The notes under the pieces: model-generated | Told to the model about the DNA's origin: nothing | The model's input: the letters and a program-made list of their open reading frames with translations, nothing else | Databases searched by the model: none | Translations under genes and position numbers: made by a program | In this document: positions 27,561 to 55,381 of the stretch, one piece after another | How positions within the stretch are numbered: the stretch's first letter is position 1 | Layout: every line of letters begins with the position of its first letter | NCBI GenBank assembly: GCA_963921795.1 | Contig: OY997649.1 | Span: 61,459,785 to 61,523,784, forward strand | Reading direction: 5' to 3' | From: Nannobrachium achirus | Taxonomy: Eukaryota; Chordata; Actinopteri; Myctophiformes; Myctophidae | Length of the DNA stretch: 64,000 nucleotides

Positions 27561-30184
27561 CTTCTAGTGATCTAAGGATTGTGCTTCTTGGGAAAAATGA
27601 AGACACAAAGATATCATTTCGCAAATTAATCAAAGGGAAGTGGCAGGGAAAGTCTGTCAGAGTCGTGAAAACACCAGACCTCTTCGTTCAATCTGTTGGA
27701 TCAGTGGAACAGGAAATAAAGAAGTGTGCAGCTCTTTGTCCACCTGGACCAAATGTTTTCCTGCTGTTAGTGAATCCTTCTGAATTCAATGAGATAGACA
27801 GAAATGCACTGAAGTTCATCATGCATTTGTTTCATCAAGAGGCCTTTAACCACTCAATGGTCATCACAACACATGAGGGTCATGAAGACAACATCTCTGT
27901 AAAACAGACCATTGAAGAATGTGGAGGAAGACTCTGCATAATGATTGAACATGACCGTCCATCACTGATGCAGAAGATTGAGAAAATTGTGATTGAAAAC
28001 AGAGGAAGATACCTCACATCTGTTGAAGCTAGAGACACAATGACACCAAAGTTCAACCCTCCTCTGAACCTGGTGCTGTGTGGCAGAAGAGGACCTGATA
28101 AGATTTCAGTAGCCAATGCCATTCTGGGTCAGACCGAGGACTGCCCATTGTCTAGTTCTTCTACAGAGTGTGTGAAGAGACAGGCGGTGGTATGTGGGCA
28201 CAGGGTGAACCTGGTGGACCTGCCTGCCTTCTATGAAAAGTCTAAGTATGAAGGGCTACACAACGCATTAAGATGTGTCTCTCTCTGTGATCCAGAGGGA
28301 GTCCATGCCTTCCTGCTGGTCGTTCCTAAGGGTCCCCCTACCAATGAAGATAAGGGAGAGTTACAGAGCATCCAGGATGTATTCAGCTCTCAAGTCAATG
28401 ATTTCACTATGGCTCTAACTGTAGAATCAGATCCAACCGCTCTAGCTGGTGACAACATTGTAGGTAAAGAAACAGACATCCAGGAGCTGTGTCGGAGCTG
28501 TGAAGTCAGACACACTGTCTTCAACATTAAGGACAGCAAACAAGTTCCTAAGCTGTTGGATTCTGTAGTAGAAAATATAAGACTTCTGCAAGGGAATCCG
28601 CTCTGCTTCACAAGAGAAATATTTACCAAGGCACAGATGGAAAAGGTCATCAAGCAACAAACTGAACTTGAGGAGTTGAAAAATATTTCAGGTGATGATA
28701 ACAGTCAGAGCAGTGATTGCCTCAGAATGGTGCTGATTGGGAAGACCGGATGTGGAAAGAGCGCCACAGGAAACACGATTCTGGGTAAGACAATATTTAA
28801 ATCCACGTGCAGCCAGTCATCGGTCACCAAGCGTTGCCAGAAGAAACATGGTGAGGTAGATGGCCGTCCTGTTGTTGTAGTTGATACACCTGGTTTGTTT
28901 GATACAACATTGTCCCTGGAAGAGGTTAGGCTGGAAACGATGAGATGCTTCCCTCTGCTGGCCCCAGGGCCTCATGTGTTCCTGTTGGTGTTACAAATTG
29001 GACGGCTCACACAAGAGGAGAAAAAATCATTGGAGCTAATCCAGAAAGCCTTTGGAGAGAATTCCAAGAAGTTCACCATCATTCTTTTCACAAGAGGAGA
29101 CTCACTGGAAAAAGATCAGTCCATTGAGGACTACATCGAACAGAGTAGTGATGATTCTTTTAAGAACCTGATTGCTGACTGTGGAGGAAGGTGCCACGTG
29201 TTCAACAACAATTGTCAAAATGACCGCAAACAAGTCAGTGATCTGCTGGTGAAGGTTGAGAAGATGGTGAAGATAAATGGTGGCGGGTGCTACACCACAG
29301 AGATGTTTCAGGAGGCTGAGGCAGCCATTCAAAAACGAATGGAAAATATTTTAAAAGAGAAGGATGATGAGATGGAGAGAGAGAGGGCGGCCCTGGAAAG
29401 AACACATGAAGAAGATCTCCAAGCAATGAGAAGAATGATGGAAGAGCAGGAAGCTAAAATTGAAGAGGAGAGAAAGAAAAGAGAGAGACTACTGGAAGAA
29501 AAGGAGGATTGTATTAAGAAATTGAAAAGGGAGAAAGAAAGAGAACGGGCAGAAAGAAAAAAGGAGGACAAAGAAAGGAAGGAAGAGGAGGAAAGGGAAC
29601 GAAAAACGTGGCAACAAAAACATGAGGCCTTGGAGAAAAAATATCATGAAAAAAATGATAGAATGTTGGAAAAAAAGAAAGAAGAAATAAGAAAACAACA
29701 AGAGGCTTGGGAGGAAAAAAATAAGAAATGGTGGGATAAAAGAGCCCAGGGTGATAAAGAAGAGCAGCAGATAATAGAAAGGCTTCAGAAAGAATTTGAT
29801 CGGGAAAGAAAAGAACACATGAAGAAAATAGGAGAAGAGTTTGAAAACAGACAAAAAGAAGTAAAGGAATGGCAGAAAACTCAGAAAGCATATGAAGTAA
29901 AACTGGAGAGGATGGAGAAGCAATACAAAGACGAGGCTAGAAGGAAAGCTGAGGAATATAATGATTTCAAAGAAAAGCATGGTAAGAATTTGGAAGATCA
30001 AATAGGACGAAAAGATACTGAAATAAATGATCTGAAACTGAAACAAGCTTCAGAGATTAAACGGATGAAAGGGAAATCGGATAAACACGAAAATAAAGTG
30101 AATGAATTGGAGAAAGAACTAGAAAAGAAGACCGAAGAACTGAACAAATTGAAAAATAATGAGAAAAACTGCATCATCAGCTGA
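27561..30184 (+). CDS. gimap8-like: Gene B exon 5: three-domain GIMAP8-like GTPase with CaaX end
   Basis: The acceptor TTTTTTAG ends at 27560; the open frame that runs back to 27521 is intronic. The complete protein is about 924 residues. Domain 1 (about 55-200) has GKNEDTK in place of a P-loop, and domain 2 (about 219-400) GRRGPDKIS, so both look unable to bind nucleotide. Domain 3 (about 438-635) is canonical: [21 protein letters not shown] and RCHVFNN. A long charged coiled coil (about 636-915) follows and the protein ends NCIIS, a CaaX box with Ser at the last place, which favours farnesylation. Three AIG1 domains in tandem is the architecture of mammalian GIMAP8. The 3' neighbour is gene D, convergent. 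The 3' flank keeps the TTTGAATGGAATTTATGGTAGGTG block found after A and C. Confidence 0.92.
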
Positions 30185-30790
30185 GAGCATTATCATGCTT
30201 TTAAAAAGCAGTTTATTGTTATATTTGTTGTTGTTGTTAATCTGCAACTTACATGATTTGACTTTAACTGCTCATACTGTTCTGTAGTTTTGCTGTCTTC
30301 ATTTGAATGGAATTTATGGTAGGTGTGATCGTCAGTTGGCCACTACAGATTATCCGGGTTACTACCAGCCAATGTACAGTACCGCTCAGATAACAAACAA
30401 TGACAGATAATGATGTACTAATTATTAATTACTTTTGAGACAAGCATGTAAGCTTGATCTGATTGATATTAAATGTCCTTGGTCTGCTTAATTATATTTC
30501 ATTTCAAGAGAATGACTTTTTTTTATAAAATAACTAACGTTTAATGCTTTGTATTCCTTACATTAAAGTATCTTGTTAAAATTCTAAACAATGTGGTTAA
30601 GTACTATTTCAGCAGTGAATGAAAATGTGACATTCCCAAAACCAGGACACCAGGTTTAAAGTGGTTAAAGTGTTATGCATCTTTCCTGGTGCCCAGGAAG
30701 CCCATATGGGCTTATAGGACATTTATAAAGGCAATCTAGGCATCACAATATTACTGAACTCTTAAACTGTTTACAGGGTTATCTGTACAT
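30185..30790. other. 3' UTR and flank of gene B
   Basis: Begins with GAGAGCATTATCATG, shared with the 3' end of gene A, and carries the TGAATGGAATTTATGGTAGGTG block conserved after A, B and C. ATTAAA near 30564 is a possible poly(A) signal. No other gene is visible. Confidence 0.5.
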
Positions 30791-30794
30791 CCAA

Positions 30795-31640
30795 TCCAAT
30801 CCAATCCAACTTTATTTATAGAGCACATTTAAAAACAAACAAGTTGACCAAAGTGCTTTACAAGAATCACAGCAAATCAGAAATAAAAACAATAAAAACA
30901 AAGATAAACATAACACAGATAAGCATAAAATAGAAACTCAAAAAACAAACACAGATAAAATTCACTCTGGATTAAAAACTTGGGAATAAAAATGAGTTTT
31001 AAGACTGGTTTTAAAAATAGTGAGTGAGGGTGCCAGTTTGATCGTGAGGGGGAGTTCATTCCAGAGCTTAGGGGCAGCCACAGAGAAGGCTCGATCACCC
31101 CTATGTACTAGACTGGATCTAGGGACCACCAGCAGCAGCTTGCTTGCTGTTCTCAATGTCCTTTTGGGGACATAAAGTTCGAGGAGATCAGAGATATAAG
31201 GTGGGGCTAGTCCATGAAAAGATTTAAAAACAAACAATAAAATCTTAAACTTAATCCTAAAATGCACAGGGAGCCAGTGGAGTGAAGCCAGCACAGGGGA
31301 AATGTGGTCACGCCTTCTGGTGCCTGTCAAAAGGCGAGCAGCCGCATTTTGTACTAACTGTAACCTATGAAGGCTGCCATGGCTAACACCCAAATAAAGT
31401 GCATTGCAGTAATCAAGCGATCAAACGATAAAAAAGGCTTGGCCTTTGATAAAGTCCTAAGCTGAAAAAAGATTTTAAAACATGCATTTATTTGCTTGTC
31501 CATTAAAAAAATCACTGTCCATTTTAACACCTAGGTTTGTTACAGTGGGTTTAAGATACGGTTCCAGGGGGCCTATGTCTAAAACGAATGTACTAGTACT
31601 AATGTACATAGCAGTTATAAACACTGAATGACTTAACAAT
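30795..31640 (-). mobile_element. L2-type LINE, 3' part
   Basis: The minus strand encodes LKPTVTNLGVKMDSD, then LVQNAAARLLTGTRRRDHIS, PVLASLHWLPVHFRIKFK and LWNELPLTIKLA, the standard C-terminal blocks of vertebrate L2 reverse transcriptases. It ends in a (GGATT)n-like tail at 30795. Decayed and 5'-truncated. Confidence 0.85.
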
Positions 31641-31905
31641 AAACCGACAGCCTGGAATAAACTCCCAGTACACATGCAGGCAGTCTCTGAGGATAGTTTA
31701 AAGCACAGCTCAACACCTATTTTTACACTCTTGCCTTTAGCTGATTGTTAATTACTTTTTTTTTTCTCTCTTTCTTCTCTTTTATGTTTTATTGTTGCCT
31801 GGAAGTTGCTTATGTGTACAATCTTTGCTCTGGAAAGCAATTTGAGCTGCATATCATGTATGAAAGGTGCTATACAAATAAAGTTTATTATTATATTATT
31901 ATTAG
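31640..31905 (+). mobile_element. L2-type LINE 3' end, opposite orientation
   Basis: Starts in the C-terminal AWNKLPVHMQAVSEDS-like region and ends TGCTATACAAATAAAGTTTATTATT. It abuts the inverse L2 piece at 30795-31640. Confidence 0.7.
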
Positions 31906-32074
31906 TTTTATTATTAACCTGCAACCTTGTGCTTTGTTATGCAACCAGGAAAGCTTATCATGAGCGGGCTGCATCTCATAAAATGTTTATGAAACTCATT
32001 GACAATCTTCTTATCAGGAAGACCAAGAATCAAATAAACAGGGTCAAGTTCAATCTTTGTATCAAAGGTCATTA

Positions 32075-32560
32075 ATTGATTGAAGACTTTATTAGAAGTT
32101 TGCATAGAAAAAGGTACAGTTTCATCACTTGTACAAGGTCAACTAAAAGGAGATCCTAGAAAAGACTAAGCTTATTTCCATAGGAAACCATTGAAGTATC
32201 TCATATAACATTGAATGACAGACGGATAGAACACAGTACTATGCAGTAGATATAGTAAAAAATATAGGTCTATATATACAGTTGGTAAATACAAAGAAGG
32301 GTCAGGGGAGGCTGGGCTAAGTTTGTTATTGCCAGTTGCGAATGGCTGCCGCCTGTAAGTGGTTTTTCAGGGCGATTTTAAAGGATGCTAGGGAACCACA
32401 CTCCTTTAAGGCCTTCGGTAGGGCGTTCCACATTTTGGTTGTATAGCAGAAGAACAAGTTTGACCCTTTGTTTGAGTTGACTTTGGGTTGAACGTGATCT
32501 GTGGCGCTGCCTCTGGTGTTGTAATTGTGGACGTCCTTAACGTTTATAAAGTATTTTCAC
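32075..32560 (-). mobile_element. LINE tail of the (AATC)n family
   Basis: Inverse orientation; matches the tail at 13967-14455 and the 3' end of the LINE at 16944-19784, including the GCCTGTAAGTGGTTTTTCAG block. Confidence 0.8.
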
Positions 32561-32659
32561 ACTCAGCTACTGTACAATCCCGAACCAGCATCGTTCAATT
32601 TTACAACATGACCATACAGTGAGTATAATCTAGCCTCGCGTGGCCGTGGCCAGACCGAC

Positions 32660-32960
32660 TCATCATCCACCTCTGCCGGTGATAGTTTGAATGAGTCTGA
32701 ACAACGCCAGGCTAACTATACAGTCTATGCAGGCTAATAAATCACCCATCTCAATCTTACACTTAAGGCAGAGAGGAGACATAGGATTCATGTTATGGTG
32801 AAGCCTTAAGTGAAATCTGTCTCTAGGTAACGAATGAATCTGTAATAGATGTATAGTTCTCAGTTGAACCAACCAGGCTATATTGCATACATAGTTTTTA
32901 GCATTTTCAAATATTTCACACCAAATCTCAATCCCTTTCCCATTTACCCCAACACTTACA
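32660..32960 (-). mobile_element. L1-like LINE fragment (C-terminal zinc-knuckle region)
   Basis: The minus strand encodes RFHLRLHHNMNPMSPLCLKC followed by KIEMGDLLACIDC, which resembles the L[HY].M.P..SP.C..C motif at the C-terminus of fish L1/Tx1 reverse transcriptases. Short and decayed. Confidence 0.5.
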
Positions 32961-33265
32961 TTAGATCTTTAAAAGGCCATAAAGTGCCCCTTTTAATGAC
33001 CCATTGCCAGTAGGCCTACCCTCTCAATCCATAATAGATAGTGTTTCATGCTGGAGAATCCCCCCTTTAAAAATCTAAAGATGTTATGGTGAAATGTGTT
33101 TTGTTGTCAGTGATTAAAAGGCATAAGATTAGGAATATCAAATGAATACCTTAGTTTTATAGTATATCACCATATCTCACTAAGAAGGTAACCATATATT
33201 TTTAACAAGTTCAAAAAAGTGTACTAGTTACCCAGATAGTTGCGCAGGATCAGTATGCAGCTTTC

Positions 33266-33787
33266 CAGTGGTGGAAAAAGTACTCACATTTTGTACTTAA
33301 GTAAAAGTATCAATACTGCACTGTAACTGTACTCCGTTACAAGTAAACGTCTAGAATTCAAAATGTACTTGAGTAAAAGTGAGAAAGTATTGGCATCAAA
33401 ATGTACTTAAAGTACCAAAAGTAAAAGTAGGCCTACAAAATGTTTGAAAATAGCAGATCTACAATCTACAACACGTCGCGTTGTAGATTGCAATGCGAGC
33501 GTTGTGAGCTTGTAGATCGGCTATTTTCAAATACCGTATCCAAGGTATAGAATAGGACGTGATTGGTGTATGTGTTATAATATTATAATTTATATCTGCA
33601 AAGTAACTAGTAACTAAAGTTTTCAAATAAACATAGTGGGGTAAAAGTACAATATTTGGATCTGAGATGTAGTGGAGTAGAAGTAAAAGTATTGGACAAT
33701 GGATATACTCAAGTAAAGTACAAATACCTCAAAATTGTACTTAAGTACATTACTTAAGTACATTTACTTAATTACTTTACACCACTG
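33266..33787. mobile_element. hAT-type MITE (CAGTGGTGG family), copy 2
   Basis: Ends CAGTGGTGGAAAAAGTACT and TTACTTTACACCACTG with the exact 8-bp duplication CAGCTTTC on both sides (33258-33265 and 33788-33795). It contains a palindromic block at 33444-33532 that copy 1 mostly lacks. Confidence 0.9.
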
Positions 33788-34151
33788 CAGCTTTCCATGT
33801 GGATACAGAAACATTTAACCAGATATACATGATCAATAAAAAGTTTAACCAGATAGTTTTACAAGATCAAATCTTTATTAGTTAACCAGATAGTTGTATC
33901 AATACAAAGCTACATTCCCTTCTTGGTCTGTGTTAATAACTATAATTTATAACCAGACCAACCAGACTTGTGATATTGTGTGTAATATCAGCTCAAGCAT
34001 ATGACCTGCCATTTATCAGTCTTTATTTGTAATCTGAGATTTGAAATTGTTTGATTTTAGTAATGGCCATGATGAATATATAAATATCAGAAAACAATGT
34101 TGATATGATATGATTTGAATGCATTGGAATGCTTACAAATTGGCAATTCTC

Positions 34152-36238
34152 TCAGCTGATGATGCAGGTTTTTGCATTTATTCTGGCATGTAATTCTTCC
34201 AATTCTTTGTCTTTTCTCCTTACGTCTTCCATCATTTTGTCCAGTTCTAGATCATTTCTTCTTACGTGTTGTGTCAGAGCCGTCTCTCTGCTTTCCATTT
34301 GGTCAATCTTTCTTCTTATGTGTTTGACCAGGTCATCCTCTCTTGTTCTCAATTCTTTCAGTTCTATCTCTTTCCTTCTTATTTCTTCCATCAGACCTTT
34401 TTCTCTGTTTTGCATTTTGTCCCATTCTTTATCTTCTGTTCTTAACGCTTTCAGTTCTTCCTCTTTTGTTCGTAGTTTTTCTGTCAGATCCTTCTCTGTG
34501 TTTTGCATTTTGATCAGTTGTTTTTCTTTTATTCTTAGCCCTTTCAGTTCATTCTCCTTTGTTCTTAGTTCCTCTATCAGACTTTTTTCTTCGTTTTGCA
34601 TTTTGTCCAGTTCTTTCTCATTTTTCCTTAGTTGTTCCGTTAGTCCCCTTTCTGTGTTTTTCATTTTGTCCAGCTCTTCCTCATTTGTTCTTAGTTCTTC
34701 CTTCAGACCTTTTTCTTTGTTTTGCATTTTTTCCATTTCTTCTCTTCTTCTGTTCTCATGTTTTTCTTTCCACTCCTTTTGTTTAACCTCCTCCTCTTTC
34801 TTCTTTTTGCCATCATCCTCTTGTCTTTTTTCCTGTTCTTTCTTTCTGTCCTCATTTTCTTTGATACAAGCCTCCATTTCTTTCAGTTGTTTCTCTCTTA
34901 TGTCTTCCTCCTTTTTATTTTCAACCTGCTGCTCTTCCATCTTTCTTGTCATTTCTTGAATTTCTTCTTCATATTTTCTTTTGAGGGCTTCTTCTGTTCT
35001 TAACGCGTTCAGTTCTTCCTCTTTTGTTCTTAGATTTTCTGTCAGATCCTTTTCTGTGTTTTGCATTTTGATCAGTTGTTTTTCTTTTACTCTTAGCTCT
35101 TTCAGTTCATTCTCCTTTGTTCTTAGTTCCTCTATGAGACTTTTTTCTTTGTTTTGCATTTTGTCCAGTTCTTTCTCATTTTTCCTTAGTTGTTCCGTTA
35201 GTCCCCTTTCTGTGTTTTTCATTTTGTCCAGCTCTTCCTCATTTGTTCTTAGTTCTTCCTTCAGACCTTTTTCTTTGTTTTGCATTTCTTCCATTTCTTC
35301 TCTTCTTCTGTTCTCATGTTTTTCTTTCCACTCCTTTTGTTTAACCTCCTCCTCTTTCTTCTTTTTGCCATCCTCCTCTTGTCTTTTTTCCTGTTCTTTC
35401 TTTCTGTCCTCATTTTCTTTGATATAAGCCTCCATCTCTTTCAGTTGTTTCTCTCTTATGTCTGCCTCTTTTTTATTTTCAGCTTGCTGCTCTTCCATCT
35501 TTCTTGTCATTGCTTGAATTTCTTCTTCATGTTTTCTTGTGAGGGCTTCCCTCTCTCTCTTTAAAATCTCTCTTGTTTGAAAGGCTGCATCTACCTCCTG
35601 GGTCTCTGTGGTGTAACACCCCCCACCATTCTGCTTCACCATCTCATCAACCTTCATCAGCAGATCACTGACTTGTTTACGGTTGTGTTTATCATAGTTG
35701 TTGAAGACGTGGTACCTTCTTCCACAGTCATCGATGAGGTTCTGAAATGAAACATTCTTAACTGAATCCTCCTCTGTTACGTAGTCGTCAATGGACCGAC
35801 TCTCATTCTCCAATGAGTCTCCTCTTGTGAAAAGAATGATGGTGAAATTCTTGTAATCTTTTCTGAAAGCATTCTGGAATAGCTTCCATGTCTGTTCGTC
35901 CTCTAATGTGAATCTACCAATTTGTAACACCCACAGGAACACATGAGGACCAGGAGCTAGCAATGTCATGCATTTTGTTATCTCCTCATTAACAACATCC
36001 AGTGACAGATTTGTATCAAACAAACTAGGAGTATCAACTACAACAACAGGGCGGCCATCTACAAGACCATGCTCTTTCTGGCAACACGTTATGACAGATG
36101 ATTTGCTAGGTTTTGCTAAATAGGTTTTGCTAAATATCGTCTGGCCCAGAATAGTGTTTCCCGCAGAGCTCTTTCCACTACCAGTCTTCCCCATCAGCAC
36201 CATCCTGATGCAATCTGTGCTCTGGTTGCCACCGTCAC
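34152..36238 (-). CDS. gimap-like: Gene D exon 5: single-domain GIMAP GTPase with long coiled coil and CaaX end
   Basis: On the minus strand the acceptor GATATTCCAG ends at 36239; base A of exon 4 plus GT gives Ser, then [12 protein letters not shown]. The complete protein is about 746 residues. One AIG1 domain (about 58-260) has [13 protein letters not shown] and RYHVFNN, but the G3 box reads DTPS where relatives have DTPG. A very long coiled coil (about 265-740) contains an internal tandem duplication of 186 residues, and within it 21-22-residue heptad repeats of the E[KR]xLxEELRxxExEL type. The protein ends TCIIS, a CaaX box. A TTTATT (AATAAA inverted) at about 34022 may serve as poly(A) signal. 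It faces gene B tail to tail and gene C head to head. Confidence 0.92.
34433..35548 (-). repeat. In-frame 558-bp tandem duplication inside gene D
   Basis: 34433-34990 and 34991-35548 are nearly identical by eye, for example CTTCTGTTCTTAACGC at 34433 and at 34991. The period, 558 bp, is exactly 186 codons. Each copy runs through [14 protein letters not shown], [14 protein letters not shown] and the [21 protein letters not shown] blocks. Few differences imply a recent event or ongoing conversion. Confidence 0.95.
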
Positions 36239-36509
36239 CTGGAATATCAAGAGACATTGAATTAGTTTGGGTTTTTAGTTCAGCATGGTTTATCTGAAAT
36301 GCAAATAATCACCAACAGATGATAACACAGAGATTAACGCTCCAGCTAATAAATAATTTAATAATAATGAAATGTATCAAATTGATAACGTTGGCTTTTT
36401 TCCAAGTGTGTTATAGTTGTACCATATTAAATCAACCGTGACATTCCAAGATCCTTGTCAACAGTTGTAATTCTTGTAGGTTTTGTTAGGGATTATGAAA
36501 AATACTCAC

Positions 36510-36569
36510 TGTCAGGAGGTTGTATGTTATCGCTTCTGAGCCGTTTCAGAGGTATCTCACCCTGGTCCT
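36510..36569 (-). CDS. gimap-like: Gene D exon 4: second basic cassette
   Basis: Sixty bases between TTACAG and GTGAGTATT on the minus strand, phase 1 at both ends, encoding EDQGEIPLKRLRSDNIQPPD. It keeps the LKRxRS core and P-D end of the other cassettes. Confidence 0.8.
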
Positions 36570-37373
36570 CTGTAACAATGAAGGTAGAATAGAATAGATC
36601 ATTATAGGCTGTTGCTTCTTGTTAATCTAATATACTGTATAGGTTTCAATGACACCTAGATGGATGCACTGCCATAGTTTTTGGTTAGGCGTTAACTATA
36701 ATATAGTGTTTTGACTTCTAACACTGAAAGGCACAGAGGCAGTCACAGCATTCACAACACAAAACAACATTCTTAGTGCACAGATTTTAGGTCTAGGACT
36801 AAACCAGAATGTGTAGAGTCTACACATTCTGGTTATGTATCTACACTGTAGACTATACTTTAAGCCTACTATATATTTCTTGTGCTTTCATATTTTGTCA
36901 TGTGGGTTCAGGAGCTTTCTGCCTTCAAGCATCCCCTGATGATTATAATTGGTTACAAGAAATGTAAAAGTTTCAAAAAAGAAATACCTCTGCTAATTAG
37001 TGTATTTGCTGACCATTATTTTGTTCCAGATAAATGCAGCTGATATAGATCAAACTGGAAATGTATTTTTGGAACAATGGTCCTTTAGAGCAATAGTGTT
37101 GCTTTTAATGTTAACGCCTGTTTTTTTAACTGGGTTTGCCACTGGCTTGGCACCCTGGGGTTAGCTCTCACACTGTGCTCAATTGTCAGTGTCATTAAAT
37201 CAGCTGACACTGCAAGATCAAGGTAATTTTATGTCAATGTCAAAGCATTCATTTAAAAAATACAGCAGGAATGGTACATTTAAATGTAGGCTATTTGTGT
37301 AGGGATTGCAAAAATGTCAAATCTTTACAAATGAAACAGCACAACAGTTGTGATTCAGTTCAACTTTACTCAC

Positions 37374-37442
37374 CGTCAGGAGTTGGTAACAGTAACTTAT
37401 CATCATGTCTGTGTTGTTTCCGAGGCGTCTTACCCTTGCCCT
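37374..37442 (-). CDS. gimap-like: Gene D exon 3: first basic cassette
   Basis: Sixty-nine bases between ATTACAG and GTGAGTAAAG on the minus strand, phase 1 at both ends. It encodes 23 residues, EGKGKTPRKQHRHDDK and then LLLPTPD. EGKG at the start is shared with the first cassettes of A and B; gene C has EHRGK. Confidence 0.8.
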
Positions 37443-37904
37443 CTGTAATGATATAGCACATAGAAAAATACAATTTTATCGATATAGGTTGTCATTTCTT
37501 CATCTAGATGTCTTTTCCAATTCAATACATCAATATAGGGTTGTCATTTCTTGTTCATCTGTATGGTAATTACAAATACCTAACTACAATGGTCATATAA
37601 TTTGGATAAAGTACACTTGATGTAAATCATTGACCAACCCTAACTCCTTGATTTATATAAATGTACTCAGAAAGTTTGATTACGTTTATCTTAAATCAAT
37701 AAATATAATAAAGTCTCTTTTACTCAAGAAGTACTGGAAAGAATATTCTGTTTTACTTGTTTGCCTTTTTATTTATTATCTTAGATGTTATAGGTTAGAG
37801 GTTATCTCCCTGCATGCTCTTGCAGTCAGACTATAAAATAAGTGATTCATTTTGACAACTGATCTGAACTAAGTGGGTTGATATTGAAGCCCGGACATTT
37901 TTTA

Positions 37905-38275
37905 ACACGTTTCCCCATTGGTTTTTGACGGGACAAAGCCAGATGTTGGAGCTATAGCTCCTGTTCCAGTAGCACCGCACAAAAATAACACTGAGAAGAA
38001 CCAGACTAATATCCACTCAGTGATAATGTCTGGCCATGCGATGCTAGACCAGGCCTTCTGCTCCACTGCCCCATGTCTGTGTGGTGCCCTCCCTGAACAC
38101 CTGAGAACACCACAGTCCACTGATGCTTTTAAAAATGGACTAAAAACCTTCCTTTTTAACAAAGCGTTTTCCTAATTATACTGTTTTATGACAATGTTTT
38201 TAAACACTGTATCACTTTGAGATTTGCAAAAATGTAAACTGCATTATAAATAACATTTGTTAGTCTACTATTATT
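37905..38275 (+). mobile_element. L2-like LINE 3' end in intron 2 of gene D
   Basis: Encodes LPEHLRTPQSTDAFKNGLK and TFLFNKAFS before a stop, the usual end of L2/CR1-type ORF2, then a 3' UTR with TTTGAGATTTGCAAAAATGT and CTGCATTATAAAT. 5'-truncated. Confidence 0.75.
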
Positions 38276-38461
38276 ATTTGGAAGGTATTTATTTATCTAT
38301 CTATCTTTAAGCAACATCAAAAACCAACCTGTTAGGAGGCTTCACCTTTCCTCGTTGTCCTAGAGTCTAGGTCTAGGACATAACCTCTTCATTTCATGGG
38401 TTTAGTGATCCAACGCATATTTTGTATTTTTGTGTTTATTTGTTGCATGCCATGTACCATG

Positions 38462-41810: not shown

Positions 41811-41813
41811 TAC

Positions 41814-44132: not shown

Positions 44133-44138
44133 ACTCCG

Positions 44139-44365: not shown

Positions 44366-45078
44366 TTTCACATTATGTCAACAATAGAGACCTCAAAAAA
44401 CTGAACTAATACACGGTACATGAGCCCCTTTTCGACTGAAGCTTTAGCACCACACTACACAACACTATACCGCACCACACCAACATATCTAAATTTTCCA
44501 TTACACAAAAGTACCCCTATCGGTAAGAAAGAAATGCACCCTTTTAACTGTGATTATAATATACATTTGTATTACAACTATCGTAATTATACTGCACAAT
44601 AATGGATTATAACTGTGAGTATAATACAATATAAAGTAGTATCATATTACTATGATAATTATAATACACTATGATAGATTATAATAGTGATTATAACACA
44701 ATAGAATCTATTATCATGTTTTACAACTATATCCTGGTGGTCTACATGAAAAGTCAGTGAGTGATCAGTAATTTTTGTTTGCCCCTGTATGGCCTACAGT
44801 AGCTCAGACCTACTCTGGATTGGATACTTTTTAGTACAACGTTTAGTACCACTTTCACACCACTCTACCCAGGTCCTTGTAGTGGAAAACCTGGCACAAA
44901 TGGGCGGTGTGGAGTGGCGTGGTGTTGGGCCATGTCAGTGGAATATGGGCTTTTAAAGACAACAGGCCTCATATACATGTACAGTGAACTTACTTAACAT
45001 ACTGTAGTAATACACATGTTCACAGACAACAGACATCACCTACACTGAACTAACATACTGTAGTTCCACAGTACTTAC

Positions 45079-45136
45079 ACACATGGTACCTATGTTAAAA
45101 TATGACCAGCTCCCATACAGTGCATATGATTATATA
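45079..45136. repeat. Single unit of the minisatellite in duplication copy 2
   Basis: One shortened unit (CACACATGGTACCTATG, then TTAAAATATGACC and GCATATGATTA) stands exactly where copy 1 has about 24. Flanking sequence matches on both sides, so this is a difference in array length and not a separate locus. Confidence 0.85.
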
Positions 45137-45156
45137 TAATCCCCCTTGACCACAGG

Positions 45157-45282
45157 AAGAGAGCCGTGAGGTCAAAGGTCATTGGCAAGGAGCATGCACC
45201 GTGTAATCTTGACGACAGCAGCGGAAGTGACATCACAGACTCTGATGGAATATGATTGGTAGGGTAGGATTGGCCACACGCA
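45157..45282. promoter_or_regulatory. Second copy of the DR1/CRE/CCAAT block
   Basis: Near-identical counterpart of 2355-2480, with the same DR1, GGAAGTGACATCA and ATTGG elements in the same order, about 2.1 kb upstream of exon 1 of gene C. Confidence 0.35.
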
Positions 45283-45780
45283 CACACACACACTCACAGG
45301 TTACATGCCATATTACTATACTATACAAAATAAAGCAACTGAATGCAATGTTTCGTCACCCAACTTTTAAATGCCATGTTTGGCAACTAATGTCTAACTA
45401 ACTAACTAACTAACCAGAGTCATCACTTTTCACAGTCTTTTGGGGTCTGTTTTTAGCCCAAGGAATGTTTTTCATGCAAAACAAATGCTTGCAATGGATT
45501 CAGAATAATTAAAAACCCCTAGTTTGACCCCTCACATGCTACTTAAAGCAGATTTTTGTGGGGTATTGTTTTCCTTTATAGTATAGTGTATAGTAAGTGA
45601 ATGAGACACAAACTTTCCGCTTTTTTGCGAGGGGCATGGGGGCTCAATTTGTTATTTAACCTTCATCGTTGACAGAACCACTGAGAAACGGACCTTTGCT
45701 CTCCACCAACACAGCAATATCGGATTCGCCCCCGCCCCAACTAACAGTATATCTGAAACCTCACACACACAAAAGCATCA

Positions 45781-45783
<3 letters not shown>

Positions 45784-45866
<83 letters not shown>
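45784..45866. repeat. (CA)n microsatellite
   Basis: About 41 CA units; counterpart of 3056-3124. Confidence 0.95.
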
Positions 45867-45870
<4 letters not shown>

Positions 45871-46131
45871 GATGGAGGCGTGTTTATGAGAATAGTTTGG
45901 CCGCCATGTCATAACTAAACTCTGACTCAGGACCATACAGTACACAACCAAAATGGCGGTGTCAAGTCTGCTCACTAGCATCATTTTGACAGATTGTTGG
46001 TTTGTTTTTGAACAACTTTTGAATAAATCAATTTTGAATCAGATACGGAATGTAAAATCAAGCTGACTGATAACATCCTACTTATTTGTTAAGTTATATT
46101 ACTGATTTACTTTACTGTTGTCTTTTTGTAG

Positions 46132-46215
46132 GTCAACCCAGATGTCATCTCAACCATTGATTCCTACAGCACATTTTCAAAGGATATTTTGCACTGGGTG
46201 TTGGATAAATTATGA
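46132..46215 (+). CDS. Second copy of the candidate terminal exon
   Basis: Counterpart of 3384-3467, with the same acceptor, 27 codons and TGA. Only one residue differs by eye (Met to Ile in SKD[MI]LHW). The flanking intergenic DNA has many small indels, so a preserved frame is mildly suggestive of coding constraint. Confidence 0.3.
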   Translation, partial: VNPDVISTIDSYSTFSKDILHWVLDKL

Positions 46216-47034
46216 AAATAAGCTCTGTAGTAAATGAAGGCTTTTGGTATTTATCTTTTTTTTTTTTTTATCACACACAATTAATAAAATAAATGCAGGT
46301 GTAATTTATGTCATAGAACAAACCAGGAAACTATTTTAGCATTACAAAAACCCATTGAGGAAAAAAGCACTGTAAATCTGATGGTCTTATTAACAAGACA
46401 TGGGTCAGATTCAAACCTGCAGGGTCCTCAGGCTTACAAGGAGTATTATGGTGTCTGTGGACTCCAGACATAATTGTTGAATTCAATCAAATTGCTCTAC
46501 TGCAGCACCTTGGACTTTAGACATAATTATTGTCAGGGAAGTTTTGTTGTTTCACAGCCAACATTTGGAGTCCAGAAGTCTGAATGACACTGTTAAAACT
46601 TGACTGATGTTACTGGATGTATTGGAGATTTAATGTAGATACAGTACATTTGTCATAGTGTGAGTGTGACTAAGAAAAGGTAATCATAATGTTTACAAAA
46701 ATACCTTCAGTTACACCTCGCTTAATTTCCATTACTTCACATGGGAGATTCTCCCGGTGTTTCGCCAAGGTGGTCACGGTTTTAAGGTTAGGTTTAGGCA
46801 TAATTTCTGTGAGGTTATGATCATGGTTAGGGATAGTGTTTGTGAGGTTAGGGTTAAGGTTAGGGTTAGTTAGGCATGATGTTTGTAGGGTTAGGATCAA
46901 CGTTAGGTTTCGGCATATTTTCTGTGAAGTCAAATGTGTTTAGGTGCAACCTGGGGGGATACACCATATCATTTGATATTGTACAAATGTAATCAAATTG
47001 ACCTATAAGAATATAAACGCATAAAGGAACACTG

Positions 47035-47436
47035 TTTTTATTGAATATAACAGAATGTTTCACAACCAGTGTGGTACAATACTTTTATCTTTTTTTATCA
47101 CTTGAAGTTTTATTAAAGTCAATTCCTTTATCTATGTGACACAATAAATCATATCAAATAAACTTTTATGCTCTCAAACTGTACATTGGTTAATGTTTAA
47201 TTCATAACCTTGTGATGAAGCTGTGTGTTTTAAATATTGCACATCAAACTTTATAAGATCATATCGAACTGTTACAAGTACCACAACAGACACTTTATAG
47301 GAGGAGTTATAAAATGCCTGTTAATGATTATCTAATATCTACAGTAGTTGATGTCCTGTCTACAGTTGGTCAGGGCTGGTCTCTCATCATAGTTGTTCTC
47401 GCGTCCTTCAATGAATGTTGCAGTAAGAATACATTG
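47035..47436 (+). promoter_or_regulatory. Gene C proximal promoter region and non-coding exon 1
   Basis: Counterpart of 4330-4738. Exon 1 ends ACATTG before GTAAGTAAAG; its start near 47270 is inferred by alignment. Few differences from gene A are visible. Confidence 0.55.
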
Positions 47437-47950
47437 GTAAGTAAAGACAACAGAAAAACTAATTACTAAAATAAATATACAATTCTAATCAGAACACATC
47501 ATTAAATAGGAATAGTAATGAATATTTGGAATGCCACTCTTCATTTGTTGATTTACTTATATATTTATCATATATTATTTTGATGATTATTATTATTGAT
47601 ATTATTGATCTTTTCTATATGCATGTTGCATGGAGTGTGTGTGTGAGTGTGTTTTGTTTTTATGTAATTTAATAGAGAAACCAGGTTGGAACTGTGACCT
47701 CACTCTATCATGTGTTGATGGATGTGTTGTGGTTCAGTTCAGGTGAGAAAGGTGTTTTCAGACACCTGAGACCTGAGTCTTTTTTTTCTTTTTTTTTTAC
47801 AAAGTCCATTAACCTTCAATTCAATTATCTCATAGTTTTCTTTTGAATTTGCGGCAAACCTTTCAGGATTTTCATTTTTAGGGCAGAACACCAGTTTATG
47901 TTACAGACTTTCAACTTATTCTATTTAAGTAACAATGTAATGTGATTCAG

Positions 47951-48021
47951 ATGGAGTTTGGATCCAGCTTGTGGCACTGAAGACAGACCTATGGCAGAAT
48001 CACCAACTACATCACTTGGTG
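47951..48021 (+). CDS. gimap8-like: Gene C exon 2: uORF, start codon and first ten codons
   Basis: Begins with the nine-codon upstream frame MEFGSSLWH (stop 47978-47980); the main ATG is at 47991 (MAESPTTSLG plus one base). A 10-bp deletion relative to A shortens the gap between the uORF stop and the main ATG to 10 bases. Two donors three bases apart (48019 or 48022) would add or drop one Gly without changing frame. Confidence 0.78.
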
Positions 48022-48644
48022 GTGAGTCCATCATGCATGTAAACTTTCACAGAATCAGTTGAGAATGTTCATGTAGCTCATCTGTTAAGTGCCATGCAAC
48101 TGTATTTTGACTGTACCCAGGAATACTTTTATCTGTCACTGCAGTCATAGTCATATAAAGTCACTGTCGGGCAGAAAACAGCTCCATTTCTCAGGTTTTA
48201 GCATTTCGGCCAAAACCTCCTAGGTGGTTTCTGCCGGACAGAAGAGATATTCTACAATATACTATGGCAGTGGGGGTGAAATTATTCAGGCACAAGATCT
48301 ACTTTGCCATGTTCCAATGGTGATGAGATTTATTATTATATCACCACCATCCACTTTGTATTATAGGCTGCTAACAATAATAACAATTCATGCAAACAAT
48401 AAACAAATCGATAGCCATATGAATAAGATTATCGGACCAATACTGACTTAAACATGTTTGCACATCAAACAATAATGCAAAAGGAATGTATGGGAAATAC
48501 TGAAGACAGCACTTGATTCAGTGTTGTATAGAAGCAAACTTTTTACTACTTGGTGTTGTAAAGGAAGGTCCTTTTGTACACCTACCAGGACAGGTGAAAA
48601 ACAATAGAAACTGGCATTTGGCCCAAGTACGTGCCGGCAAAATC

Positions 48645-48760
48645 TCGATAGTCCGACGTCCCATTAGTCCGACTTAGGGTTAGGTTTAGGTTTAGGCATA
48701 GTTTTACTGAGGTTAGGTACCGTTGGACAAATGGGGCGTCAGAACAATGGCATGTAAGAA
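48645..48760. repeat. TAGTCCGAC / GGTTAGG degenerate repeat
   Basis: TAGTCCGACGTCCCA is followed by TTAGTCCGACTTAGGG and a GGTTTAGG stretch. It is present in intron 2 of gene C and absent from gene A, where the alignment breaks at the same point (about 6645). Confidence 0.5.
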
Positions 48761-49169
48761 CTCAGAACAGCGCTACTTATCAGTATCATTCATCAGTATA
48801 CTGTATCTCTGGGATACCTGGTATTACTACTTGGTATTTAAATTAAACATTGAGAAAGAGTTATCACTCAAATATATATTTGACAACAATACAGAATAAA
48901 TGTACTGTTAAATAAATAAATAAATAAATAAATAATCCAAGCAGTTATTACTGGACTTCAGTAGACAATGAGAAAACATTAGCAGTCCTGCAGAAATATA
49001 GCTGACTGATTGCAGCAACACAACGCTGTCTTCTGGTGTCTCACCCTTAGTGTGAGAGTTCACTGGGAACTAACTGCTTCACAAGGTGGTCATCTGTAAC
49101 TGTTGATCTGTTCTTATGACTTGAAAGCCTCCATGTGCAACATACAACTTTCATGACATTCTTCCATCA

Positions 49170-49455
49170 TGTCCTACATATTCTCTATTTTCTTGCACAG
49201 TGCTTGCTTTTCAAATCCTTTAATGGATTTCAGGGCATTCCACATTATGGTGACAGAGTAGTAGCTAGAGAATCTTGACCATTTGTTCTGAATTTGGGGG
49301 GTACCAGATTGTGGGTGTTCAATCTGTTGTTGTGGCTGTGGGTGTCGCTCACTTTGAAGAAGTAGTTTGACAGGCATGAGGGCACTGTCCCTCCAAGTAT
49401 CTTAAATACCAATTCCAATGATATTTGCTTAACCCTGTTTCTTACCCTGAGCCAT
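49170..49455 (-). mobile_element. LINE reverse-transcriptase C-terminal fragment (longer copy)
   Basis: The minus strand reads LGWLRVRNRVKQISLELVFK, then SDTHSHNNRLNTHNLVPPKF and a WNALKSIKGFEKQALCKKI-like end. This parallels the C-terminus of the LINE at 16944-19784. It is 5'-truncated and decayed, in intron 2 of gene C. Confidence 0.6.
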
Positions 49456-50334
49456 CCCAAACTAGCAAAAAAACTAGGAATTAGGTTAGTCATAGGCTTT
49501 AGGGCCGAGTAGTAGTCGTATCAGTTCGTTTTGGGAAGTCTTAAGCTACTTTGTACTTTAGTGACATTGAAGTGAATTGCTGGTGAATGATGCAATCAAT
49601 AGTGGAGAAATGGCAGGAAATCAGAGCTTTGTGGGTGAGTCCCGTCATGGCTGCGCTGCTGGCCGTCATCTTAGAAACAAGTTTGTACAGGGGAAGTTCA
49701 ACATACTGTAGGTGACAAAGTCCATGAACGCCCAGAACGTGTCCTAGCTCACCTCTTGTGTCCTTTCAGGGGCAAAATCTTGAGCAACTCCTCTCATGCA
49801 CACACGATAGATGAAGTGGTCATCTTAACTAACCATCTTTGTTTATTTCAGCCATTGCTGTGCAGTTGCAGATGAGATAAATACATTCACTATGGTTACG
49901 CGTTCCACTTTGGTTCATGAGCCATGTCACATGTCATTGCCTGTCAGTCCTGTATCTCTGGTACAACTGTACAATTTAATGGAGCAGAATGTGTAACATA
50001 CTGTACTGTATGTGACACAAACACTATATGACCCATTTTGGTCACACTATGTGACTAATTTATTTTTTATTTTATTGTTTTACTGTTTTGTGTGAATATA
50101 CAGTATACTGTATGTGTTTATTCAGGGATTTTGGCCACCTGGCAAAATTGGCAATTGCAATTCCAACAAGGGGAATCAAACACTGGGAAATCTCACAATA
50201 ATGATGGAAATATTGGTCCATTATTTACTTCAATGGTTTTACTGTGACCAAATGATATGACAGCTAGGTATTTGTCACTGGAAAATGCGAATGTATATAA
50301 TAATTGTACTTTTCTACATTCTACATCATTACAG

Positions 50335-50397
50335 AGCACAGGGGTAAGAAACTTCTGAAACGACAACGCAGCAGTGATGCATTCTTTCGTCCTGACA
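50335..50397 (+). CDS. gimap8-like: Gene C exon 3: first basic cassette
   Basis: Sixty-three bases, phase 1 at both ends, encoding EHRGKKLLKRQRSSD and then AFFRPD. It aligns base for base with exon 3 of gene A. Confidence 0.8.
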
Positions 50398-51119
50398 GTG
50401 AGTAAACTAAAGCTGAACTGAATAACAGCTGTTATGTAACGGTGTAACTGATGTTTCATTTGTAAAGGTTTGACATTCGTACAATCCCTAACACAATCTA
50501 ACGGGAGTGGCTCCAAGGACCTCCAATGTTTCCAAAGTTTCTTGTAACTCACAATAATGTGGCTGAAGAAGTGTTTGCTGTTTTATTTAGGCATGCCTTG
50601 TTGTGCTAAATAGCAAACGCTTCTTTGATAATTGTGTTTATTATATTATATGATATCCCTTAATATGTTGTATTTTGACATGCAATCACGAAGATACTGT
50701 TTTTAGTCTCTACATTTTACATTTCTAATTGATGTGTTGTTTTCAATAGCTTATAGAATATATATTTAATGTTTATTTCAGTATCCTGATATCCTCCCTC
50801 ACTAAACCCAATGACTGACCCATGAATTACAATAGGCTATAGCCTAAGACATGGGTCCTCAGACTTACTACAGTCTATCACACCAAGTGTTTGTGTGATA
50901 GATTATTTTTGCATTAACCACTTGAACCCTATAGCATCCCTATTCTGGGGGGAACATTCACCGAAAATAGCAGATCTGCATGTCAACTTGTACATCGCTT
51001 GTAGATCGTCTATTTTTGGTTTACTGTAGAGAACCCTAACCCTAACATATTAATAGAAAATATAATGTGTAAACAAACAAAAATCATTAATATACACAAC
51101 ACTGATCATAGTACCTGCT

Positions 51120-51121
<2 letters not shown>

Positions 51122-51193
<72 letters not shown>
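51122..51193. repeat. (CT)n microsatellite
   Basis: About 36 CT units in intron 3 of gene C; gene A has about eight units at 8460-8476. Confidence 0.95.
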
Positions 51194-51195
<2 letters not shown>

Positions 51196-51534
51196 TAAGG
51201 TGTCATTGGCCTGAAAAACAACAACTAAATTGTAGTTAATGTACTACGATTGATATTAAAACCATTTAAGGCAATGCAAAGGCACTGTATTTTTGGCATC
51301 AAAGTCATTCAGCCATTATGGTTTTTGGGGCATAGAAATTACCTCATGATACATATACTGTATACAATTAGTACAACATCACTTGTAAACCGGTTACTCA
51401 TTTTGCTGTCCAGTTAATAATTGTTAAGGCCATTTTCTCAGTTTTACTCTATAGTTACTGCACGTGAGCTTTGTAGTGCAGATGAACAATAAACGATAAC
51501 CTATATTGATATGTTTTCTAAATTATCATTACAG

Positions 51535-51600
51535 TGAGCCAGGATGAGGAACCTCAGAAACGGAAACGGCTCAGCAGCTATAAGTTACTGCCTCCTAATA
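51535..51600 (+). CDS. gimap8-like: Gene C exon 4: second basic cassette
   Basis: Sixty-six bases, phase 1 at both ends, encoding MSQDEEPQKRKRLSS and then YKLLPPN. The first 15 residues equal those in gene A; the changes cluster in the last seven. Confidence 0.8.
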
Positions 51601-51633
51601 GTGAGTAAAACTGAACGGAATCATTCGCATCTG

Positions 51634-52018
51634 TTAAAGGAGTAGTTCACCCCCAAAATGACTTTTTTCTATTAATTAGTCATGCCATGGAGACTTATAT
51701 TTTTTTGAATTTGTCGCATTCCTAAGACAAGAAATGTATATAGTAAATTTACCCCCATTGATTCTGGATGGGGACCCAAATGCATTTGTCTGAGAATCAA
51801 TGGGGGTAAATTTACTTGACCCTTGACCCTAAATTTACCCCCATTGTTTCTGACCCAAATGCATTTGGGTCAGCATCCAGGGCCTTATTTGTGTTCCCAT
51901 TCAGGCTCATGCATTTGGGTCCCCATCCAGAATCAATGGGGGTAAATTTACTATTGTCTTATGAATGCAACGAATACAAAAAGAAAAAAAAAACATTTTG
52001 GGGGTGAACTACTCCATT
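51634..52018. mobile_element. TTAA MITE family 1, in intron 4 of gene C
   Basis: Sits at the same intron position as 8880-9358 in gene A, so its insertion predates the duplication. The left end is intact (TTAAAGGAGTAGTTCACCCC); the right end has drifted to ACTACTCCATTA. Confidence 0.8.
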
Positions 52019-52253
52019 ACTACTGTGTTTTAATGAATTGCTTTGACATTGGCATTAATTTGCCTGGCTCTTGCAATGTCACAGTTGATTTAAGGTGATA
52101 CAAATGAAGATCATGCAGAACTAACACTATAAATATGAAGTGAATTTGTGAGGTCCACAACACTCATGTTAGTTCCACAAGTATATCAGGGAAAAGTCAT
52201 GACAGATTTATTATGGCCCTGACTATGTGTTTGAAGGGAAAATGTGTGCTTAA

Positions 52254-52692
52254 CACATTGACCGCCATTTTAACATACCTCCGTACTCCCACCTGCCATT
52301 CGTCTCCATAGACTTCCATGTAATTGGGTGTGCACGGATCATGCACACCCATGCCTAGATAATGCACCACGTGTGTCCACATTGCTCACAGCTTTCAAAC
52401 AAAAAAATCCGAATGGAAATCCGTTCAGGCATTCATGAGATAACAGCCACTATGTTTAACAAAGATGGCTGCCAAAATGGCTGCCATGCTTGAAAGATGG
52501 GGTTGCTATGGGGGTTAAACATGCAATTTCGCGATTGCTATCATGCCTACTCCATTTTTGGGGGTCAAAAAAAAATTTTGAAAAAAAAAATGTTTGATTT
52601 TTTTTTTTTTTTTTTAATTCTCGGGACTATCGGGCCTGGCGGGGAAAGACATTGGAATAATCTCGGGACTATCGGGCCTGGCAGGGAATGAG
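52254..52692. mobile_element. TTAA-flanked insertion, only in the gene C copy
   Basis: TTAA occurs at 52250-52253 and 52693-52696, while gene A has one TTAA in the matching context (GTGTGCTTAATGTTAAG at about 11028-11040). Ends ACACATTGACCGCC and GGCAGGGAATGAG are at best weak inverted repeats. It holds a two-fold TCTCGGGACTATCGGGCCTG repeat (52620-52684) and A/T runs, no coding frame. A piggyBac-type non-autonomous element fits the clean TTAA duplication. Confidence 0.75.
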
Positions 52693-52751
52693 TTAATGTT
52701 AAGACAAATCGAATTAATTTGTAATGTTTTAATGGAATGTTTTCATTTCAG

Positions 52752-55381
52752 TGAAACTGAAGGTTGTTCTGTTGGGGAACAGCCAGTCAGCGAGGAATGA
52801 GGTTGGGGACCTCCTACTGGATCAGACTGTGTTCAGTGGACATGATGCTCTTACTGACTGTATGATAGGCAGTGGTCAGGTGGAGAAAACACAGATGGTG
52901 GTCATCAACACTCCAGACCTCCTACATCCCAACATCACACCTATAGAACTGTCAGAGAAGGTCCAAAACTGTGTGAAACATTGTGATCCTGGACCTTTCG
53001 TGTTTCTACTGGTGCTTCAGCCTGAAGACTTCACTGAAGAACAACGCCTCAAGTTACTGAACGTTCTTCAAGAATTCAGCAGTCGCTCATTTGATCACTC
53101 GCTTGTATTAGTGTCAACACCCAAAAAGAAGCGTAAAGGTCCCATGATAAACTATATGCGGCGTCCTCAACTATATGAAATAATCCGAAAATGTAGGTAC
53201 AGACATTTACAGCAGAATAACCTTGAACGTCTGGAGCTGTTGACACGATTGGGTCAAGTTGTTAAGGAGAACAATGGACAATGTCTCACTAGAGACACCA
53301 TGACACCAAAGCCCAACCGTCCTCTGAACCTGGTGCTGTGTGGCAGAAAAGGAGCTGGAAAGACTGCGGCGGCCAACGCCATTCTGGGTCAGACTCAGTA
53401 CAGCCCAGGGTATAGTTCCTCTACAGAGTGTGTGAAGAGAGAGGCGGAGGTGTGTGGGCGCTATGTGACCCTGGTGGACCTGCCTGCCTTGTATGAAACA
53501 TCTAAGAAAGATGTTCACCACGCTTTGAGTTGTGTCTCACTTTGTGATCCAGAGGGAATCCATGCCTTCCTGCTGGTTATTCCCATGGGTCCCCTCACCG
53601 ATGAAGATAAGGGAGAGTTACTGAGCATCCAGGATGTATTCAGTTCTCAAGTCAATGATTTCACCATGGTTCTGTTGACTGTAGAATCAGATCCAACCAT
53701 TACGGATGATGCCTTAGTAGATAAAGACAAAGACATCAAGGAGCTGTTACAGAGCAGTGGAGGCAGATATGTTGTCTTCAACATTAATGACAGCAAACAA
53801 GTTCCTGAGATGTTGGATGCTGTAGAAAGGATGAGCTCTCTGGAGTGTAAACCACTCTGCTTCACAAGAGAAATGTTTACCAAGGCCCAGATGGAAAAGG
53901 TCATTCAACTGAAAGAACACATCACCAGGCAACAAGCTGAACTCGAACACTTGAAAAACAAGGGCACAGACTGCCTCAGGATGGTGCTGATAGGGAAGAC
54001 AGGCAGTGGGAAGAGCTCCTCAGGAAACACTATCCTGGGTGAGAATAAATTTACAGCCAAACCCAGCCAAGGTTCTGTCACCACGTGTTGCCAGAAAGTG
54101 AAGGGTGAGGTAGACGGCCGTCCTGTTGTTGTAGTTGATACACCTGGATTGTTTGATACCAGTGAAAGCCTGTCCCAGGAAGACGTTCATCGGGAGATTA
54201 TAAAATGTATCAATCTGCTGGCTGTGGGGCCTCATGTGTTCCTGTTGGTGTTACCAATTGGCACACTCACGGAAGAGGAGATAGAAACATTGATGATAAT
54301 CCAGAACACTTTTGGAGAGAAGTCTAAGAAGTTCATAATCATTCTTTTCACAGGAGGAGACTCATTGGAACATGATAATCAGTCCATTGAAGACTACATC
54401 AACGAGGGAGATTCATTCAAGAACATGATTGATGAATGTGGAGGAAGGTACCACGTCTTCAACAACCGTGATAAAAACAACCGTAAACAAGTCAGTGATC
54501 TGCTGATGAAGGTTGAGGCAATGGTGGAGGAGAATGGTGGGGAGTGCTACACCACAAACATGTTCCAGGAGGCTGAAGCAGCCATTCAAAAACAAATGGA
54601 GAAGATTTTAAAAGAGAAGGACGATGAAATGAAGAAAGAGAGTGATGCCCTGGAAAGAACACATGAAGAAGAAATGCAAGAAATGAGAAGTAAGATGAAA
54701 GAGCAGCAAGATGAAAATGAAAAGGAGAGAAAGGAAAGAGAGAAACAACTGAACAAAAAGGAGGAAGAGCAGGAGAAGAGAAAGAAAGAAGGGGAACTAA
54801 GAAAGAAGGAGGACACTGCAAAGTGGCAAGAGGAGGAAATGAAGAAAAAGGAGTGGAAAAAAACATTCAGGGCCTTGGAAAGACAGAAAACAAGTAAAAT
54901 CTTGGAAAGGGAGAAAGAAGAAAAGAGAAAAAAACAAGAAGCTTGGGAGAACGAAAGAAAAGGATGGTGGGACAAAAGGCGACAAGAAGATGAAGAGAGA
55001 ATTCAAGAAATAAAAAGGCTTCAGGAAGAGTTTGATCTTGAAAGAAAAGAACATGAGAACAAAATAAGAGAAGAGCGTCAAAACAGACAACAAAAAGAAC
55101 AGAAAATTCAGAAAGAACTTGAAGTAAAACTGGAAAAGATGGACAAGAAATACAAAGATGCCGCCAGGAATCAAGCTGAGAAAGCCAATGACTTTATAGA
55201 AAGCAAGAAGAATTTAGAAAATCTCATAGCAAGGCAGGAAGCTGAAATAAATAATCTGAAATTAAGAGCCAATGAAAACGAGGAATTAAAGGAAGAACTA
55301 GAAAAGAAAAAAGTAGAACTGGACAAAATGAAAAAGCAACAGAATGACGAGAAGGATGGAAATAAATGCATCATTGCATAA
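52752..55381 (+). CDS. gimap8-like: Gene C exon 5: three-domain GIMAP8-like GTPase with CaaX end
   Basis: The acceptor TTTCAG ends at 52751; A from exon 4 plus TG makes the Met codon. The complete protein is about 929 residues. Domain 1 (about 54-220) is degenerate, with [11 protein letters not shown] for the P-loop, and closely matches gene A. Domain 2 (about 245-430) keeps a good P-loop (GRKGAGKT) but has DLPA for DTPG. Domain 3 (about 462-660) is canonical: [21 protein letters not shown] and RYHVFNN. A charged coiled coil (about 660-920) leads to the terminal KCIIA, a CaaX box. AATAAA at about 56042 is a candidate poly(A) signal. It is the duplication partner of gene A but keeps the middle domain and full coiled coil that A lacks. 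Confidence 0.92.

Follow-up and report, generated by a model that had tools for sequence, protein, structure and literature searches.

Three of the four GIMAP genes studied in a 64,000-nucleotide stretch of the 1.66-Gb genome of the lanternfish Nannobrachium achirus (the window, C12:61459785-61523784) encode proteins whose last four residues, directly before the stop codon, are CIIS, CIIS and CIIA. These ends have the form of a CaaX box, with a cysteine four residues from the end, an aliphatic pair and a small or polar last residue. Each lies in the same exon as the GTPase domain and behind a long charged tail without a hydrophobic segment, and the cysteine is retained in diverged paralogues. 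On this basis I consider it likely, with a probability of roughly 0.7, that these genes encode farnesyl-anchored, GIMAP8-like GTPases that resemble guanylate-binding proteins (GBPs) in the way they work but do not belong to them. From the sequences, the branch to which these genes belong would be predicted to be lipidated, to bind membranes, to dimerise and to act in immunity.

The four genes are gene B, a minus-strand gene, a gene named here for its CIIA end, and gene A. All four match AIG1 in Pfam far above the cut-off of 27 bits (328, 188, 364 and 255 bits, in that order), and the solved structures closest to gene B are GIMAP7, 4, 5, 2 and 1, whose E values (1e-53 to 3e-38) are better than those of any other match. 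A P-loop is visible in the last GTPase domain of the three genes with a box. Gene B has a large-exon open frame at 27509..30184 on the plus strand, encoding 891 residues with three AIG1 stretches (the best at 28721..29332, plus strand; profile match C12:61488505-61489116) and a charged helical tail of 283 residues that lacks a hydrophobic segment (29333..30181, plus strand). It ends NEKNCIIS, the box (TGC ATC ATC AGC) and the stop codon TGA occupying 30170..30184 on the plus strand. The minus-strand gene (34152..36308) encodes 718 residues with one AIG1 domain (35595..36206, minus strand; profile match C12:61495379-61495990) and a 480-residue tail with a strong heptad period, and ends NAKTCIIS, with box (TGC ATC ATC AGC) and stop (TGA) at 34152..34166 on the minus strand. 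The large-exon frame of the CIIA gene (52733..55381, plus strand) encodes 882 residues with three AIG1 stretches (the best at 53975..54595, plus strand; profile match C12:61513759-61514379) and a 261-residue tail, and ends DGNKCIIA, with box (TGC ATC ATT GCA) and stop (TAA) at 55367..55381 on the plus strand. Reading the sequence by eye places a likely splice acceptor just within the 5' end of the gene B frame and another about 19 bases into that of the CIIA gene. The open frames thus bear out a preliminary description of this DNA, which had reported three genes ending in CIIS or CIIA directly before the stop.

It is very improbable that the last codons are spliced out of the mature transcript, leaving the box untranslated. 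The one AG-GTGAG site that might favour this belongs to gene A, in its tail, but gene A has no box; the tails of the three box genes contain no AG-preceded GTRAG, they are open in the frame of the GTPase domain, and the nearest AATAAA or ATTAAA is no more than 124, 283 and 660 bases past the stop. A chance origin of the boxes is negligible because cysteine is so rare in the tails, where it accounts for 5 of 2631 residues in eight genes ending Cys-x-x-x (last four residues excluded); isoleucine, valine and leucine make up 13.8% of the same residues. Within 260 kb surrounding the window (7900 N included), a strict pattern, C[AVILMF][VIL][SATMQ]-stop, terminates 6 of 239 frames of at least 100 residues, all six of them GIMAPs. 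Among frames of at least 60 residues it terminates 8 of 1222, two of which are not GIMAPs, and among frames of at least 20 residues 14 of 8279, eight of them outside the six GIMAPs. The 15-base DNA pattern for CIIS-stop occurs at 189 places genome-wide on both strands (68 for a reversed control), from which about 0.03 occurrences would be expected per 260 kb; in these surroundings, four GIMAP frames end in it. Among the 100 CIIS-stop places listed (C1 to C12:8 Mb), each is at least 32.6 kb from any listed AIG1 match.

AIG1 (PF04548) has at least 151 matches in this genome, 150 of which are listed; the zebrafish is reported to have more than 100 GIMAPs (PMC7053062). Stop-proximal ends were read for 35 of the 150 listed AIG1 frames, and all counts of the genome's GIMAP ends given here refer to these 35. 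A cysteine stands at position -4 in 14 ends and is absent from 21. Six ends read CII[S/A/T], all of them in the C12 cluster: beyond the window these are 61528764 (CIIT), 61614271 (CIIS) and 61648170 (CIIS), the last being 84% identical to gene B in its domain and 88% in its tail. Expressed per gene, the box is present in three of the four window GIMAPs and in 6 of the 10 GIMAPs of the C12 cluster among the matches listed. Four further ends are non-aliphatic CxxS (C12:61682833 CPTS, C5:8813738 CKTS, C15:42389986 CKTS and C15:42431810 CNPS), and the remaining Cys-ended genes are three on C7 (CSVA) and one on C3 (CCIQ). In an unrooted tree of 28 AIG1 domains, a split supported at 100/100 sets ten C12 genes together with C5:8813738 and C15:42454583 apart from the rest, and 8 of these 12 genes have the cysteine at -4; within this branch the end labels have to change several times. 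The CIIA gene shares 57-58% identity with two more C15 genes along nearly its entire length, and 60% with C4:15261143 across residues 406-736. Adding these three, which stand outside the tree, to its 12 genes gives a branch of 15, and ten of these carry the cysteine at -4.

The tails (defined as the residues after the last AIG1 match) look like helical rods. In the window's three box genes, K, E, R, D and Q account for 62-66% of the tail, and hydrophobic residues recur with a best period of 3.5-3.65 residues (3.45-3.65 across the tails of eight genes); at period 3.5 the signal is strongest in the minus-strand gene (z 14.0). By eye, the tail of that gene also contains an apparent long internal duplication, made up of two similar stretches. 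None of the ten Cys-ended tails of the branch has a hydrophobic stretch, just as had been claimed for the window genes: their hydropathy, taken as the best 19-residue mean in the tail, lies between -0.92 and 0.09. Outside the branch (20 genes), 13 of 15 measurable tails reach 1.17-2.03 and the other two 0.68-0.69. A farnesyl-anchored branch beside these would suggest two alternative anchors in one gene family of one genome. Three box-less branch members, with values of -1.55 to -0.61, have neither anchor, and C4:15261143 reaches 0.91. Mammalian GIMAPs are described as having (1, 2, 3 and 5) or lacking predicted C-terminal transmembrane domains and, in one published statement, as carrying no known prenylation or palmitoylation motif (PMC3804274); the box genes of the window differ from them in their long tails with a CaaX end. 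The contrast drawn earlier between these fish proteins and mammalian GIMAPs agrees with that statement, but it needs qualifying, as most of the measurable tails outside the branch in this same genome are themselves hydrophobic.

Yeast Ras2, a small GTPase of the Ras type that has no comparable helical rod, is identical to gene B and the minus-strand gene in its last four residues. It is reported to be modified by human farnesyltransferase in yeast, and GFP-Ras2-CIIS to be membrane-localised only with both the enzyme and the cysteine (PMC11152559). On a Ydj1 reporter in yeast, CIIS, CTVA, CAVS, CVAA, CQTS, CKQS and CAPY all scored as modified, CIIS at 100%, and the strongest restrictions on CXXX ends were D, E, K or R at a2 and K, P or R at X (PMC10320760). 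The proposal that CIIS is a farnesyltransferase-type signal therefore agrees with published experiments on two proteins. By a rule taken from the Ydj1 table, CIIA, CIIT, CKTS, CNPS and CPTS, none of which is in the table, would be permissible as well; this lends weak support because most CXXX ends pass the rule. Ydj1 itself is reported to be farnesylated without cleavage, and by analogy the non-aliphatic GIMAP ends may be too.

The terminal cysteine has been kept while the tails diverged. The tails of the ten Cys-ended branch genes are 261 to 519 residues long and 26-88% identical in pairwise comparison, which upholds the earlier remark that the boxes follow long, otherwise differing helical tails. 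Because the aligner opens long gaps ahead of the final four residues where tails are short, only columns occupied in every one of the ten genes were counted. There are 58 of these among the last 350, and the terminal cysteine is the sole invariant one; 8 further tail columns, nearer the domain, are invariant. In an ungapped comparison of the ten tails that starts at the stop, -4 alone among the last 60 positions shows no more than two kinds of residue. The codons of the six canonical ends vary silently at C-I-I (TGC/TGT, ATC/ATA, ATC/ATT). The ratio of nonsynonymous to synonymous substitution (dN/dS) in the tail is 0.84 for gene B and 61648170 and 0.98 for a C5/C15 pair, with all of the last four residues unchanged in both. 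It is 0.40 for gene B and the CIIA gene, where S has become A at the last residue, and 0.66 for 61495379 and 61614271, where only two of the last four codons are mutually aligned. This pattern of the cysteine is evidence of retention and not a clean test of it.

Two other explanations of the retained cysteine deserve consideration. The first is that the ends are an inherited relic, the ancestor of the cluster having ended CIIS and its duplicates carrying that end without present function. Every canonical box seen sits in one branch, gene A and 61634637 lost the end with the domain undamaged, and branch members elsewhere end CKTS or CNPS, all of which a relic would accommodate; yet tails that change fast and differ so widely in length still place the cysteine exactly at -4 in ten genes, and I regard this explanation as unlikely. 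The second, which I find less likely again, is that the cysteine serves another use, either as a disulfide or palmitoyl link at the tip of paired helices or as part of a C-terminal peptide ligand. CKTS, CNPS and CPTS do retain the cysteine without the aliphatic pair. However, six ends keep both isoleucines and a small last residue (S, A or T), as a farnesyltransferase box does, a disulfide needs no fixed distance of four to the stop, and a terminal S, A or T is unlike the usual PDZ ligands, which are hydrophobic-ended.

Several findings weigh against farnesyl anchoring as the explanation for the branch. Five of the 15 branch genes, including gene A in the window, lack the cysteine at -4. Gene A (11071..12711, plus strand), with two AIG1 stretches, a shorter tail and no box, ends KKAA, as does 61634637, in what looks like a shared frame change; by eye, another frame just downstream of gene A reads HCIV-stop, which I take as a remnant of the lost box. 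The gene at 61673745 has a stop after 71 residues and lacks the cysteine, C4:15261143 ends NKRG, and C15:42454583 (L007), with an own frame of 1991 residues, has a tail broken by stops, one of its broken-tail frames ending CKSS-stop. Among the 35 ends read, the canonical aliphatic box is confined to the C12 cluster; the branch relatives on C5 and C15 end CKTS or CNPS, and these ends, like CPTS, may be weak or uncleaved substrates. The CaaX boxes described for fish GIMAP-type proteins are real in one long-tailed branch but are not a rule for fish. In a C15/C15 pair (tail dN/dS 0.78) CKTS has changed to CNPS, so that a1 and a2 are not fixed there. The genes compared for retention are paralogues of one genome that were selected for a cysteine at -4, which biases both the invariance and the silent-codon argument towards retention, and gene conversion can give such paralogues common ends. 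A scan for orthologues in viral contigs, where fish genes are hardly to be expected, found none. In the CIIA gene the heptad signal is weak (z 1.9 at period 3.5, the lowest), and a structure model of this gene, with tail helices at 623-687 and 698-874 and the last 8 residues loose, is weak too (mean pLDDT, the predicted local distance difference test, 55.1).

If farnesyl anchoring is correct, a GIMAP8-like, partly multi-domain branch of the GIMAP (AIG1) GTPases would carry a long helical rod after its last GTPase domain, and farnesyltransferase would add a C15 lipid to the cysteine at its end. At CIIS, CIIA and CIIT ends the last three residues would then be removed, with methylation next. The lipid would anchor the tip of the rod in a membrane, replacing the hydrophobic tail of other GIMAPs, and the GTPase domains at the opposite end would be free to dimerise. 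The likeness to mammalian GIMAP8 lies in the AIG1 domain and in the three AIG1 stretches of gene B and the CIIA gene; GIMAP8 is reported to have three GTPase domains (PMC4201521). The C5 and C15 genes have a further AIG1-like stretch upstream that matches the first domain (C5:8811606-8812136, C15:42433918-42434541 and C15:42392135-42392683), which suggests four GTPase-like domains in those genes.

The GBPs resemble the window genes in combining a GTPase with a CaaX end, CTIS in GBP1, and, like the helical tails seen here, their C-terminal part is helical. The resemblance is one of design: no GBP family domain was found among the Pfam matches (E up to 0.001) of the four window proteins, whose GTPase is AIG1, so the GBP-like design proposed earlier stands as a likeness but not as a relationship. 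GBP1, GBP2 and GBP5 are reported to be prenylated in vivo and to require prenylation for membrane association (PMC2998424). Outside animals, Arabidopsis AIG1/IAN8, a pathogen-induced AIG1-family GTPase, is listed as prenylated in a review (PMC6866125); this is a plant protein, and the listing alone does not establish a common origin of its box with that of fish GIMAPs. The words prenyl and CaaX do not occur in the text of a paper on plant AIG1 evolution (PMC12845241). In the literature searched on GIMAP prenylation, CaaX ends and farnesylation, from which most subscription papers were absent, no animal GIMAP was described as ending in a CaaX box. A CaaX-ended branch of animal GIMAPs thus appears new, with a prenylated AIG1-family member listed for plants (PMC6866125). 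With a farnesyl-anchored branch, the GIMAPs would join the prenylated GBPs among the immune GTPases directed to membranes, and inhibitors and a single cysteine mutant could be used to test how fish GIMAPs are recruited to membranes.

A broader and more doubtful idea is that one radiation of immune-type GTPases within a single genome encodes membrane residence in its last residues, as a hydrophobic tail, a cleaved and methylated CIIS, CIIA or CIIT, an uncleaved 'shunt' end (CKTS, CNPS or CPTS), or none. Were it so, the GTPase rods of neighbouring genes, though alike, would go to different membranes or stay on them for different periods.

Other ends read in this genome call for brief comment. 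The three C7 genes ending CSVA (L005, L032 and L033; 3 of 35) were rejected as box genes. An alternative frame in these genes reads, by eye, a hydrophobic-basic stretch, KWLKRLIVKFLK or a close variant, and two of the three have stops inside the domain; because of these two features CSVA is probably the product of a frame change, and hence of decay. The C3 gene at 42924208 (L048, C3:42923100-42924400), which ends APCCIQ-stop, was not used, being a single case from another subfamily with a hydrophobic stretch of 1.61; its CCIQ end, which follows a charged tail, would also be of farnesylation type if functional. Long tails in L045-L047 (C4, C3 and C24) contain or end near glycine/alanine-rich hydrophobic blocks (1.69-2.02), possibly a second kind of membrane-active end.

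Upstream of two window genes are candidate coding exons of 66 nucleotides. The one before the CIIA gene (51535..51600, plus strand) reads SQDEEPQKRKRLSSYKLLPPN, and its phase appears to match the large-exon acceptor; the one before gene A (8781..8846, plus strand) reads SQDEEPQKRKRLSSNEFLPPL, with a phase that, judged by eye, matches the large exon too. Both read SQDEEPQKRKRLSS..., a basic patch resembling a nuclear localisation signal, and their short DNA motif recurs at C12:61633316, upstream of 61634637. The interferon response element GAAANNGAAA occurs 9 times in the window against a mean of 4.13 in 100 shuffles, four of which were as high. The two sites that precede gene A and the CIIA gene were dropped as promoter evidence because they lie within these small candidate exons. 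Finally, the open frames at 22967-25555, 16932-17839 and 61909-62343 of the window presumably represent reverse transcriptases of the long interspersed nuclear element type and a helicase-like fragment.

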